NCBI RefSeq assembly: GCF_010747475.1
Contig: NZ_VSLZ01000003.1
Location: 62,001 to 126,000, forward strand
Source of the DNA: Halorussus sp. MSC15.2
GTDB taxonomy: Archaea; Halobacteriota; Halobacteria; Halobacteriales; Haladaptataceae
Length of the DNA stretch: 64,000 nucleotides
Direction: 5' to 3'
The notes below the pieces were generated by a model, which saw nothing but the letters and a program-made list of their open reading frames with translations, did no database searches and was not told the origin of the DNA. Shown one piece after another: positions 46,516-51,684 of this stretch (within the stretch, counting starts at the first letter, position 1; each line of letters opens with the position of its first letter). A program made the translations under genes and the position numbers.

Positions 46516-47346
46516 ATGTTGCGAACCTCCGGATTGACGAAGCAGTTCGGCGGTCTCACGGCCGTCGACGACGTGGACTTCGCGCTCGACGAGGGCGAAC
46601 TCTGTTCGCTCATCGGCCCGAACGGCGCGGGCAAGACGACGTTCTTCGACCTGCTGACCGGCGTGCTGACCCCGACCGCGGGCACCATCGAGGTGCGCGA
46701 GGGGAGTGGGTGGCGCGACGTGACCGACGCCACGCCGTACGAGACGGCGAGCCTCGGTCTCCACCGGTCGTACCAGATTACGAACGCCTTCCCCACCAGT
46801 ACGGTGCTGGAGAACGTCCGGGTCGCGGCGCAGGCCGCCAGCGGCGACGCGGCGAAGTTCTGGCGCAACGCCGGGGCCTTCGAGCGACACGTCGAGGAGG
46901 CTCACCGGATTCTGGACCGAGTGGGTCTCTCGACCGAGGCCCACACCACGGCCGGGAGCCTGAGCCACGGCGCGAAGCGCCAACTGGAGGTCGCCATCGC
47001 GCTGGCGGGCGACCCCGACGTGCTGTTGCTGGACGAACCGAACGCGGGTGTCTCCTCGGAGAGCGTCGGTCGGATTATCGACCTCATCGAGGACGTGGCG
47101 TCCGACCACGCGGTCCTGCTCGTGGAACACAACATGGACATCGTGATGAACGTCTCGGACCGCGTGGTGGTGCTGAATCAGGGCGCGGTCATCGCCGAGG
47201 GCGAACCGGACGCGGTCCGGAACGACCCCACGGTGCAGGAGGCGTATCTGGGCGGCTACGAGGCCGGAAGCCTCGGCGAAACGGAGTCCGACACGGAACC
47301 GACCGCTGACGACGCCGGGGCCGACCCGGAGGAGGGGACGGCATGA
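46516..47346 (+). CDS. livG: LivG-type ABC ATPase
   Basis: 276 residues, starting three bases after the binding-protein stop. Walker A GPNGAGKTT, signature GSLSHGAKRQLEVAIAL (SHGAKR in place of SGGQ, usual in LivG/UrtD), Walker B VLLLDEPNAG and VLLVEHNMDIVM (His switch). The C-terminal ~35 residues are acidic. Energises the importer with LivF. Confidence 0.9.
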   Translation: MLRTSGLTKQFGGLTAVDDVDFALDEGELCSLIGPNGAGKTTFFDLLTGVLTPTAGTIEVREGSGWRDVTDATPYETASLGLHRSYQITNAFPTSTVLENVRVAAQAASGDAAKFWRNAGAFERHVEEAHRILDRVGLSTEAHTTAGSLSHGAKRQLEVAIALAGDPDVLLLDEPNAGVSSESVGRIIDLIEDVASDHAVLLVEHNMDIVMNVSDRVVVLNQGAVIAEGEPDAVRNDPTVQEAYLGGYEAGSLGETESDTEPTADDAGADPEEGTA

Positions 47347-47650
47347 ACGCGACGCACCGAGTTTTCGTACGCCGGTTCACAGTTACGCAGTCCACCAGCG
47401 AACGCTCGGTTGGCCAACCGACGTCTGGGTGGACGAAAGGGGCCGCCCGGTCGCGGGCCGAAGGTCCGTGGTCGTCTGACCGGCCACTATCTGCGCCGAA
47501 CGGTGCCGAGAGGCGCAGATATGTCGGTCAGCGACCGCGACCGGGCGGGGGATTTCTGGGACGAACGTCTTCTTCCGGGTCGGTTCATCTGCGAACTGAC
47601 TTCTGTACCGACACCGCCGTAACCGAGAACCAATCACAGGAGACGATACG
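47347..47650 (+). other. 304-base non-coding insert in the liv operon with a long hairpin
   Basis: It separates livG and livF, which usually abut. No credible gene: the open frame of 103 codons lacks coding character. A perfect 10-base stem TATCTGCGCC/GGCGCAGATA (47488-47497 / 47512-47521) has a 14-base loop. Outer arms GGTCGTCTGACCG (47470-47482) and CGGTCAGCGACC (47525-47536) pair with one bulge. It could be an attenuator, processing site, small-RNA gene or the remnant of a mobile element. Confidence 0.6.
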
Positions 47651-48349
47651 ATGACACTACTCGAAGTCGAGAACGCCCACACCTACTACGGCGAGAGCCA
47701 CATCCTCGAAGGCGTCTCGCTCAACGTCGAAGAGGGCGAGGTGGTCGCGCTGGTCGGCCGGAACGGGGTCGGCAAGACCACCACGCTCCGGACCATCCTG
47801 CAGTTGACCCCGCCGAGCGAGGGCACGGTCCGCTACCGCGGCGAGGACGTGACCGGAGCGGCGACCCACGACGTCGCCGACCGGGGCGTCGGGTGGATTC
47901 CAGAGGACCGGCGCATCTTCTCGCAGTTGTCCGTCGAGGAGAACGTCCGGGTCGCAGTACCGAAGGACGGCGACCCGAGGGAGGCGCTCGAACTCGCCTA
48001 CGAGACGTTCCCCGACCTCGAACAGTTCGCCGACAAGGACGCCGGGAACCTCTCGGGCGGCCAGCAGCAGATGCTCGCGCTGGCGCGGGGACTCGTGGGG
48101 AACAACGACCTCCTGCTCGTGGACGAACCCAGCGAGGGTCTCGCGCCGCTCATCGTCGAGCGCGTGGCCGAGGCGCTGGCCGACGCCGCGCGGGACACCA
48201 CGCTGCTGCTGGTCGAGCAGAACCTGCCGCTGGCGCTCGACCTCGCCGACAGGTTCTACGTGCTTGACAACGGGCAGGTGGTCGAGGAGGGCGACGCCGA
48301 CGAGACCTCCGCCGACGACGAGCGACTCAGGAGGTATCTCAGCGCATGA
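47651..48349 (+). CDS. livF: LivF-type ABC ATPase
   Basis: 232 residues. Walker A GRNGVGKTT, RGVGWIPEDRRIFSQLSVEE (Q-loop region, typical LivF), signature NLSGGQQQMLALARGL, Walker B LLLVDEPSEGLAP, switch LLLVEQNLPLALDLAD. The stop overlaps the livH ATG by four bases. Confidence 0.9.
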   Translation: MTLLEVENAHTYYGESHILEGVSLNVEEGEVVALVGRNGVGKTTTLRTILQLTPPSEGTVRYRGEDVTGAATHDVADRGVGWIPEDRRIFSQLSVEENVRVAVPKDGDPREALELAYETFPDLEQFADKDAGNLSGGQQQMLALARGLVGNNDLLLVDEPSEGLAPLIVERVAEALADAARDTTLLLVEQNLPLALDLADRFYVLDNGQVVEEGDADETSADDERLRRYLSA

Positions 48350-49356
48350 TTGAGATAGTTCTTGCAGGATTCATCGACGCGTTCGGCCAGTTCCTCCGGC
48401 CCGAGAACCTCGCGTCGGTCCTCGTGGACGGACTGGCGAAGGCCGCCATCTACGTGATGATAGCGGGCGGTCTGACGCTCATCTTCGGTCTGATGGGCGT
48501 GCTGAACTTCGCCCACGGGTCGATGACGATGATAGGCGCGTATCTGGGCGGCCTGCTGATGGTGTTCGCGGTCGGCGGGACGACCGGCGGCGCGACCCGC
48601 CTGCTCGCGTTCTTCCTCGCGCTGGCCGCGACGTTCGCGCTCCTCGCGGGTCTGGGCGGCGTGGTCGAGGTGACGCTCATCAGACGCCTCTACGACCGAC
48701 CGCCGGTCTACCAAATACTGCTGACGTTCGGGCTGACGCTCATTCTCGACGAACTGGTCCGCATCGCGGTGCTGTTCTACGGGATGCAACCGACCAGCGA
48801 CTGGCAGGCCGCGCTGGGCACCAAGCCCGGCTTCCTCGCCCGGTCGGTGGACCTCGGTCTCATCTCGGTCAGCGGTCTCTCGCTCTTCGAAATCGTCGTC
48901 GGCGCGGCCACGGTGGCGGGCCTCTGGGCGTTCCTCACCCGGACGCGCTACGGACTCGTCATCCGGGCCGGGAGCGAGGACGCCGAGATGACCGAGGCGC
49001 TCGGCATCGACGTGCGCCGGGTCTTCACCGTCGTGTTCGCGCTCGGCGCGGGCGTTGCGGGCGCGGCCGGGACGCTCCTGATGTGGGACCCCGCGTGGGG
49101 TGCCAGCGTCCCGCTCGCCGCGGACACCCTGCTCCCGGCGTTCGTGGTCGTCATCATCGGCGGTCTCGGCACCTTCCGGGGCACCGTGGTCGCGGCGGTC
49201 ATCGTCGGGATGGCCGACGCCGTGACGACGTGGTGGTTCGTCAACCACGTCGATTTCGCCAGTCTGCCCGAGATGACCGTCTTCCTCATCCTCGTGGTGA
49301 TGCTGATTCTGCGCCCGCAGGGCCTGTTCGGCGTCGAGGAGGTGGGCGGCCATTAG
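48346..49356 (+). CDS. livH: LivH-type permease
   Basis: 336 residues, about eight membrane helices. The family motif MIAGGLTLIFGLMGVLNFAH and the loop VIRAGSEDAEMTEALGIDVR are present. The ATG overlaps the livF stop (ATGA), and its TAG stop overlaps the presumed livM start. Confidence 0.9.
   Translation: MIEIVLAGFIDAFGQFLRPENLASVLVDGLAKAAIYVMIAGGLTLIFGLMGVLNFAHGSMTMIGAYLGGLLMVFAVGGTTGGATRLLAFFLALAATFALLAGLGGVVEVTLIRRLYDRPPVYQILLTFGLTLILDELVRIAVLFYGMQPTSDWQAALGTKPGFLARSVDLGLISVSGLSLFEIVVGAATVAGLWAFLTRTRYGLVIRAGSEDAEMTEALGIDVRRVFTVVFALGAGVAGAAGTLLMWDPAWGASVPLAADTLLPAFVVVIIGGLGTFRGTVVAAVIVGMADAVTTWWFVNHVDFASLPEMTVFLILVVMLILRPQGLFGVEEVGGH
49338..49344 (+). promoter_or_regulatory. Strong Shine-Dalgarno before the ATT start of livM
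   Basis: GGAGGTG matches the anti-Shine-Dalgarno end of archaeal 16S rRNA. The GGAGG core ends nine bases before ATT 49352. No ATG, GTG or TTG is in frame until 49529. Confidence 0.7.
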
Positions 49357-50656
49357 CACCGAAACCGCCGACGCCGCGGCTCCCGAGGCGGACGCGGACG
49401 AGGAGTCGGCGGCGTCGTGGCCGGTTCGCTACCTGCGCGAGCAGACCGTTCACGTCGCGGTCATCGTCCTGTTCGCGGCCTATCCGGCCGTCTACTCGGC
49501 GCTGGTCAACTCGCCGGTCGGCGCGGAGATGGTGACGGTGCTCCCCGACGTGGAGACGATGATAACCGTCCTCTACTTCGGTCTGTTCGCCATGTCGTTC
49601 GACTTCATCAGCGGGTACACGGGCTACCTCTCGTTCGGCCACGCGGCGTTCTACGGCACGGGGGCGTACTTCGTCGTCCTCGCGGCCAACGGGAAGGTAC
49701 CCCTGCTCGGGACGGGCACGCCGTTCGTCTACCTGCTGGTCCTCGGCGGCCTCGCGGCGGCGGTGCTGGCGGTCCTCATCGGCGCGGTGTCGTTCCGACT
49801 GTCGGGCGTCTACTTCGCCATGATTACGCTGGGCTTCTCGCAGGTGCTGTACGTGTTCGTCCGCGACTGGGACTACGTGGGGTCGAACCCGCGCGACGGT
49901 CCCGCGGTGCTGGAGCGGACCGACCCGTTCAGCGTCGGCGTCCCCGGCGTGGACTCGCTGGACCTCGCCATCGGCCAGCTCGCGGGCGACAGCGTCGAGG
50001 GTCTGCTCGGATTCCTCTCGTTCGGGACGACCGAGGTGTCCTACTACATGGTCGGACTGGTAGTGCTGGTCTGTTACTTCGCCATGCAGCGCGTCGTCCA
50101 CTCACCGTTCGGTCGCGTGCTGGTCGCCATCCGCGAGAACGAGGAGCGCGCCGAGGCAGTGGGCTACAACACCTTCTGGTACAAACTCGGCGCGTTCGCC
50201 GTCTCGGCGTTCTTCGCCGCGGTCGCTGGCGGCCTGTTCGCCGGATTCCAGCGGTCGGTCTCGCCCGAGAACACGTTCTACTTCCTCGTGACCGGCGACG
50301 CCCTGCTGGCGTCCATCATCGGCGGGTTCGGCACGCTCGCCGGACCGCTCTACGGGTGGCTGTTCGACGAGAGCGTCACCGAGTTCCTCTCGAAGACCGG
50401 GGAAGGCGGCGGTCTGCTCCCGTACCTCCGGGACCACCTCGGCGACGCCACGATGGCGACGGAACTGTACGACGGGTTGACCGTCGGGCAGGCCATCGAC
50501 ACGTTCCTGAACGGACACGCCGAACTGTACGTCGGCGTCGTCTTCGTGCTGTTCGTGTTGTTCGTGCCGAACGGCCTGCTCGGCACCGTGCGCGACCGAC
50601 TCGGCGGCCCGGTCGGCAAGCAGGTCGCCGCGCGACTGCGGGGTGAGGACCGATGA
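49352..50656 (+). CDS. livM: LivM-type permease (probable ATT start)
   Basis: 434 residues if translation starts at ATT 49352 (reads STETADAAAPEADADEESAA after the start). The first ATG at 49529 would remove the helix VHVAVIVLFAAYPAVYSALV, the family's usual first membrane segment. Further helices and the motif FDFISGYTGYLSFGHAAFYG are normal, as are the MQRVVHSPFGRVLVAIRENE and ERAEAVGYNTFWYKLGAFAV regions. Its stop overlaps the next ATG in an ATGA junction. Confidence 0.85.
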   Translation: MSTETADAAAPEADADEESAASWPVRYLREQTVHVAVIVLFAAYPAVYSALVNSPVGAEMVTVLPDVETMITVLYFGLFAMSFDFISGYTGYLSFGHAAFYGTGAYFVVLAANGKVPLLGTGTPFVYLLVLGGLAAAVLAVLIGAVSFRLSGVYFAMITLGFSQVLYVFVRDWDYVGSNPRDGPAVLERTDPFSVGVPGVDSLDLAIGQLAGDSVEGLLGFLSFGTTEVSYYMVGLVVLVCYFAMQRVVHSPFGRVLVAIRENEERAEAVGYNTFWYKLGAFAVSAFFAAVAGGLFAGFQRSVSPENTFYFLVTGDALLASIIGGFGTLAGPLYGWLFDESVTEFLSKTGEGGGLLPYLRDHLGDATMATELYDGLTVGQAIDTFLNGHAELYVGVVFVLFVLFVPNGLLGTVRDRLGGPVGKQVAARLRGEDR

Positions 50657-51684
50657 CCGAAGGCGAACCCACCGTCGGACTCACCGGCTACGGGACCTAC
50701 GTCCCGGACGAAGTAGTCACCGGCGAGGAAATCGCGGCCCAGAGCGGGATTCCAGAGGAGGTCGTGGTCGAGAAGATGGGCGTCCGCGAGAAGCGCGTGT
50801 GTCCACCCGACGCCGACCACGCCACGGACATGTGCGTGAAAGCCGCCGAGGACGCCTTGGCGGACGCCGAGGTCGCTCCGCAGGACGTAGACGTTGTCCT
50901 CTACCACGGGTCGGAGTACAAGGACTTCGTGGTGTGGAGCGCCGCGGCCAACGTCGCCGAGCGCCTCGGTGCCGAGGACGCCTTCGCGGTCGAGAGCTAC
51001 GCGCTCTGCGCCGGCGCGCCGCTGGCCATCAGGCAGGCCAAGTCCCAACTGCTGGCCGACGCGCCAGAGACGGCGCTGTTGGTCTCGGCGAGTCGGGAGG
51101 AGGACCTCGTGGACTACGGCAACGAGGACTCGTCGTTCATGTTCAACTTCGGCAGCGGGGCGTGCGCGATGGTGCTGGAGACCGACCCCGCCGACGCCCG
51201 AACCCGGGCCACCGTCCGGGAGAGCGCCGCGATTACCGACGGCAGTTTCTCCGAGGACGTGGTGATGCCCGCGGGCGGGTCCAGAAATCCGCCGAGCCAC
51301 GCCACGGTCGAGCAGGGGCTTCACACACTCGACGTGCCCGACCCCGAGGGGATGAAGGAGCGCCTCGCCGACGTGAGCCTCCCGAACTTCCTCGACGTGG
51401 CCGACGAGGCGCTGGCGCGGTCGGACTGCGGCCGGGACGACTTGGACTTCGTCGCGCTGACCCACATGAAGCGGTCGTTCCACGACCTGCTGACCGACCG
51501 ACTCGACGCGGAGAGCTACTACCTCGACGAGTACGGCCACGTCCAGAGCGTGGACCAGATTCTCGCGCTCGACGAGGGACTGTCTCGCGGACTGGTCGAG
51601 TCGGGCGACCTGCTGTGCTTCCTCGCGGCCGGAACCGGGTACACGTGGGCCGCGACCGTCGTCGAGTGGCACGGGGAGCAGTGA
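50653..51684 (+). CDS. 3-Oxoacyl-ACP synthase III-like thiolase-fold protein
   Basis: 343 residues. Catalytic C119 (ESYALCAGAPLAIRQAK) and H271 (VALTHMKRSFHDLL) are kept, while the FabH Asn that follows a Tyr-Gly is His here (H296, DEYGHVQSVDQILAL). It therefore has an unusual Cys-His-His triad, so standard FabH chemistry is uncertain. Overlap of four bases with livM puts it in the importer operon, implying a link between the imported substrate and a CoA- or acyl-condensation. Confidence 0.82.
   Translation: MTEGEPTVGLTGYGTYVPDEVVTGEEIAAQSGIPEEVVVEKMGVREKRVCPPDADHATDMCVKAAEDALADAEVAPQDVDVVLYHGSEYKDFVVWSAAANVAERLGAEDAFAVESYALCAGAPLAIRQAKSQLLADAPETALLVSASREEDLVDYGNEDSSFMFNFGSGACAMVLETDPADARTRATVRESAAITDGSFSEDVVMPAGGSRNPPSHATVEQGLHTLDVPDPEGMKERLADVSLPNFLDVADEALARSDCGRDDLDFVALTHMKRSFHDLLTDRLDAESYYLDEYGHVQSVDQILALDEGLSRGLVESGDLLCFLAAGTGYTWAATVVEWHGEQ

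Follow-up and report, generated by a model that had tools for sequence, protein, structure and literature searches.

A putative ATT start codon sharing a base with the stop codon of the preceding gene is conserved at haloarchaeal livHM junctions

Introduction

Most known examples of start codons other than NTG concern single bacterial genes. The infC gene of Escherichia coli has an AUU start that is evolutionarily kept and serves IF3 autoregulation (as discussed in PMC5472188), while in archaea aIF1 takes the fidelity role of IF3 (PMC7531240). The sigR gene of Streptomyces starts at GTC, which is conserved in relatives and was misannotated to a nearby canonical codon; it encodes a regulator, its repression by IF3 has been shown experimentally, and no stop codon overlap is described at its start (PMC5472188).

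In haloarchaea, termination-reinitiation pairs are characterized by a stop/start overlap of -4 (ATGA or GTGA) or -1 nt, with a Shine-Dalgarno (SD) sequence inside the upstream gene and two subunits of one complex encoded on the same strand (PMC6728339, PMC10666635). Nine gene pairs tested in Haloferax were strictly dependent on upstream translation, and an SD was non-functional there in de novo initiation (PMC6728339). Overlaps of -5 nt are over 1,000-fold rarer than those of -4 nt, and annotation errors or rare non-canonical starts have been suggested for them (PMC10666635). Such short phase-1 overlaps require ATT and are listed as extremely rare (PMC3887535).

The junction described here, between two permease genes of livH and livM type, shares with the haloarchaeal pairs the overlapping stop and start, the SD inside the upstream gene and the coding of two subunits of one complex on the same strand, but has a -5 overlap with ATT. 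It resembles infC in a kept AUU and sigR in the misannotation of a conserved non-canonical start, but differs from infC in that the ATT is fused to the upstream stop codon and the product is a transporter subunit. In the open-access literature we found no earlier description of a conserved -5 ATT case, in a search that was not exhaustive.

Organization of the livH/livM Junction

The window, i.e., the whole stretch analyzed, comprises 64,000 nt of haloarchaeal DNA (Halorussus sp. MSC15.2, contig NZ_VSLZ01000003.1, positions 62,001 to 126,000). The features around the junction are as follows.

48346..49356, + strand: livH-type permease gene (PF02653), ending in EEVGGH and TAG
49337..49344, + strand: Shine-Dalgarno sequence AGGAGGTG, an 8-bp complement of the 16S 3' end CACCTCCT, within livH codons
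49345..49351, + strand: 7-nt spacer GGCGGCC (GGNGGC and the C of CAT)
49352..49354, + strand: ATT, predicted start codon of livM
49354..49356, + strand: livH stop codon TAG, which shares its T with the third position of ATT (overlap of -5 nt)
49352..50656, + strand: livM-type permease gene, 434 aa from ATT, with PF02653 at residues 69-335
49355..49447, + strand: variable acidic N-terminal tail of LivM (pN/pS 0.48 in the genus; whole-codon indels)
49448..49507, + strand: first LivM helix, hydrophobic (residues about 33-52) and conserved throughout the order
49529..49531, + strand: ATG, first canonical in-frame livM codon (residue 60), not a conserved start

The 3' end of livH reads GAGGAGGTG-GGCGGC-CAT-TAG, with GTC GAG GAG GTG GGC GGC CAT TAG as its last codons. 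The livM frame, +1 relative to livH, is open from ATT 49352 to 50656. One T, read directly at 49354, is common to ATT and TAG, and the two codons together occupy five bases. A first-pass annotation had proposed this ATT as the livM start, behind a properly spaced GGAGGTG and overlapping the livH stop with its T. We confirmed that the ATT is real in the sequence and that the junction is built as described, with the SD extended to AGGAGGTG. That annotation did not cover how deeply the junction is conserved, that the overlap belongs to the -5 class, or that TAG locks the ATT.

The 8-bp SD match was judged against the 16S 3' end of the genus, GGATCACCTCCT (14 of 18 genomes), since the draft assembly did not yield the 3' end of the window's own 16S. 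No RNA folding signal above shuffled sequences was detected at the junction. Searching a single genome for the bare pattern GGAGGTG-N4-8-ATTAG gave two matches versus three in the reversed control and hence no excess; it is the placement of the motif at the gene junction and its conservation, not the bare motif count, that exceed chance. A scan of four genus genomes for GGAGG-N5-10-ATTGA or -ATTAR junctions, which would overlook weaker SDs or diverged spacers, retrieved the livHM string as the only one recurring in all four.

Both proteins contain the PF02653 permease domain (E-values 8.9e-34 and 2e-34), which places them among the branched-chain amino acid/urea (HAAT) ABC permeases. They belong to an operon of a binding protein, two ATPases and two permeases (Peripla_BP_6, twice ABC_tran, twice PF02653), in which the livF/livH junction (at 48346) and the junction between livM and the next gene are canonical ATGA overlaps. 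The best scores of both proteins against the NCBIfam Liv and Urt models lie far below the curated cut-offs. Assignment to LivH and LivM proper (NCBIfam equivalog/subfamily) was therefore rejected, and ‘livM’ is a family-level name only. A PDB sequence search found no relative of LivM. The gene ATGA-coupled to livM (50653-51684) is 3-oxoacyl-ACP synthase III-like, and such a gene also adjoins livM in other families. Together with the low Liv and Urt scores, this neighbor suggests that the transporter may carry something other than branched-chain amino acids. Between the ATPase genes lies a 103-aa open reading frame (47343-47654) with ATGA overlaps at both ends and no Pfam match. Similar stretches are also present in Halorussus aquaticus (L167), in the corresponding position, and in L163, where two sites have them; the reading frame may represent a dispersed element or a spacer.

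Conservation Across the Order

An intact livHM pair is present in 16 genomes of the genus, and all of them carry the identical junction string GTCGAGGAGGTGGGCGGCCATTAG, including an identical GGAGGTGGGCGGCCATTAG. One further genus member (L017; G007:C1:2443158-2446808) has a livM broken in two pieces with no adjoining livH and was excluded from the junction counts. The ortholog set comprises 130 genomes with a readable livH/livM junction and covers 44 genera in 11 families of the order. Their junctions read ATTAG (123), ATTAA (1), ATGA (5) and TTGA (1). ATT is thus present in 124 of 130; because the species are related, these counts do not represent independent events, although 44 genera are covered. 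The ortholog comparison suggested in the first-pass annotation, a look for ATG at the same point, accordingly yields ATG or TTG in six cases only, all frame-shifted to ATGA or TTGA.

The five ATGA junctions are all found in genus g63, one member of which has ATTAG, and the TTGA junction in g88. These six exceptions were re-phased to canonical starts in two separate changes: in a LivH tree (last ten codons excluded, rooted on paralogues; a quick tree with several open forks), they fall within ATT lineages at two distinct points. When the whole phylum was searched, close relatives of LivM turned up in this order only. An exact scan with GGAGGTGGGNGGNCATTAG over 84,980 prokaryote species matched 88 stretches. 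The 80 of these that were listed comprise 79 livHM junctions of haloarchaea (Haloarcula, Halorubrum, Haloferax, Natrinema, Halobacterium, Halorussus, and others) and a single chance match, the lone non-haloarchaeal stretch L153, which is AT-rich coding DNA without livHM.

Constraint on the Junction Nucleotides and its Variants

The last codon of livH is CAT in all 124 ATT orthologues, while internal His codons of the same genes are CAC 66 times and CAT three times. The Val at position -4 is encoded by GTG in all 124, compared to 29% GTG among internal Val codons, and the second livM codon is AGC or AGT in 123. The SD reads AGGAGGTG in 83, GGAGGTG in 36 and is weaker in five; it stands exactly 7 nt before ATT in 119 of 124, all with one of the two strong forms. 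As judged from these sequences, the constraint is on the nucleotides of the junction and not on the protein alone. An in-frame GTG upstream (position -8), seen in some orthologues, was rejected as a start, as it needs a variable Gly wobble base; it is absent in the window.

The ATT appears locked against the simplest repair because a change to ATG would convert TAG to GAG and so abolish the livH stop. In the window, livH would thereby be extended by 430 codons. Across orthologues the median extension is about 99 codons, a lower bound given that 41 orthologues ran past the end of the sequence; in some it amounts to only a few codons. At least in part, ATT is thus kept because the livH stop begins with its third T.

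Other solutions exist in nature. The genus also has a paralogous livHM pair (L018-L030), about 33% identical, in which GAGGAGGTG is followed by GTGA, ATGA or TAATG and the second codon is mostly AGC as well. In genome G306, one inserted G converts CATTAGC to CATTGAGC, which gives a TTG start and a TGA stop with the SD kept. The ATGA junctions of g63 (L103, L216-L219) have their SD in another register (GGTGATC, 4 nt upstream of ATG). On sequence grounds, these paralogues and re-phased relatives mark the livM start, with the same need served by ordinary overlaps.

Coding Sequence Downstream of ATT

From codon 2 to the first transmembrane helix, LivM has an acidic tail of variable length that changes by whole codons and has a low pN/pS among genus members (0.48). 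Strong conservation of the protein sets in at residue 23, with Y44 and P45 present in 131 of 131 sequences, and the start must therefore lie upstream. In the livM frame of the window, no ATG, GTG, TTG, CTG, ATT, ATC or ATA occurs between the ATT and the conserved W23. The predicted N-terminal peptide is STETADAAAPEADADEESAASWPVR. It had been claimed that no ATG, GTG or TTG follows for 177 bases and that a start at 49529 would delete the first helix. Both points hold, as the next canonical codon is the ATG at 49529 and the helix, with the invariant Tyr-Pro pair, lies upstream of it. At the position equivalent to 49529, ATG is found in only 26 of 131 sequences. No ATG, GTG or TTG separates ATT from the first transmembrane helix in 68 of the 124 ATT orthologues (26 genera); the other 56 have some canonical codon there, at scattered positions. 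ATT is thus the sole plausible conserved start, as in infC-like AUU starts.

Discussion

Judged by these sequences, translation of livM very probably starts at AUU 49352, by termination-reinitiation after livH, across a -5 nt ‘short phase-1’ overlap. Overlapping stop and start codons on the same strand, the hallmark of such pairs, were found as ATTAG or ATTAA at nearly all junctions. The usual -4 or -1 NTG overlap, typical but not defining, is limited to the six re-phased orthologues (-4), and the usual, not essential, SD near the start lies in the upstream gene. At livH termination, CAU would occupy the P site and UAG the A site, and the 8-bp SD/anti-SD helix would retain the small subunit at the junction. 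The subunit would then shift one nucleotide forward, a shorter move than for ATGA, and initiator Met-tRNA would be accepted on AUU, aided by the SD helix and the minimal move. LivM would in this way carry an N-terminal Met. Arguing against this reading, AUU performs very weakly as a start in other settings, at about 0.3% of AUG in E. coli (as cited in PMC10666635), and in one Haloferax reporter lacking coupling even UUG yielded no detectable product (PMC4574771). The scattered canonical codons before the first transmembrane helix in 56 orthologues and the unremarkable RNA folding at the junction also count against it.

The junction could also be read as a programmed +1 frameshift at CAT-TAG, producing a LivH-LivM fusion with the SD as frameshift stimulator, as in prfB. 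Both systems share an SD upstream of a stop codon and the +1 phase, and the acidic LivM tail could act as a linker. The prfB SD lies 3 nt from the P-site codon. Here the spacing to the P site is 6 nt, whereas the 7 nt to ATT fit initiation. Moreover, tRNA-His re-pairs poorly from CAU to AUU, and the relative frame is not conserved, since the six re-phased orthologues and the paralogues have canonical overlapping starts beside the SD. We consider frameshifting improbable. Even less probable is that livM starts at a canonical codon farther downstream (ATG 49529 in the window) and that the ATT motif is mere livH coding sequence. Such codons are the choice of gene finders, and the Pfam domain, starting at residue 69, would survive. 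The rarity of ATG at that position among orthologues and the location of the conserved helix and W23-Y27-H34-Y44-P45 upstream of it argue against this choice, which also leaves the invariant CAT and the near-invariant TAG unexplained. With a draft genome, the ATT might be suspected to be a decayed start or an artifact of sequencing or assembly, but this is excluded for practical purposes, as 16 genomes of the genus and more than 120 species share the sequence.

Why AUU is retained in the putative reinitiation event is a separate matter. The weak AUU itself might be selected, because it blocks independent livM initiation or ties LivM output to the initiation-factor state, in the manner of AUU in bacterial infC. 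This compatible addition is a serious possibility, though a somewhat doubtful one. In its favor, AUU is kept across the order though a single G insertion yields a TTG start (which happened once, in G306), and the SD is near-maximal. However, the shared T may suffice to explain retention, two lineages replaced ATT, and blocking may be unnecessary as the SD alone is reported non-functional de novo in Haloferax (PMC6728339). Not far below an even chance, in our estimate, haloarchaeal ribosomes reinitiate efficiently on the near-cognate AUU if a strong SD keeps them one nucleotide beyond the last sense codon. Position rather than codon would then set the start after termination, the -5 overlap would be a working coupling class, and AUU would be kept for strict LivH:LivM coupling.

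Gene catalogues are affected by a systematic error at this junction. In the plasmid records checked (L256-L261), the annotated livM start lies 90-252 nt downstream of ATT, in one case at ATA (L257), and in the record of a Halobaculum marinum plasmid (L260) neither livH nor livM is annotated. The LivM N-terminus is thereby lost, with truncations mostly reaching the first helix or the region around it. If the proposed start is correct, a non-NTG start would be kept across an archaeal order, and the junction would be a conserved short phase-1 (-5) overlap, of a kind that surveys and simulations call impossible or erroneous. The junction would then offer a natural test of codon selectivity in reinitiating ribosomes, with its ATGA, TTGA and GTGA versions as controls.
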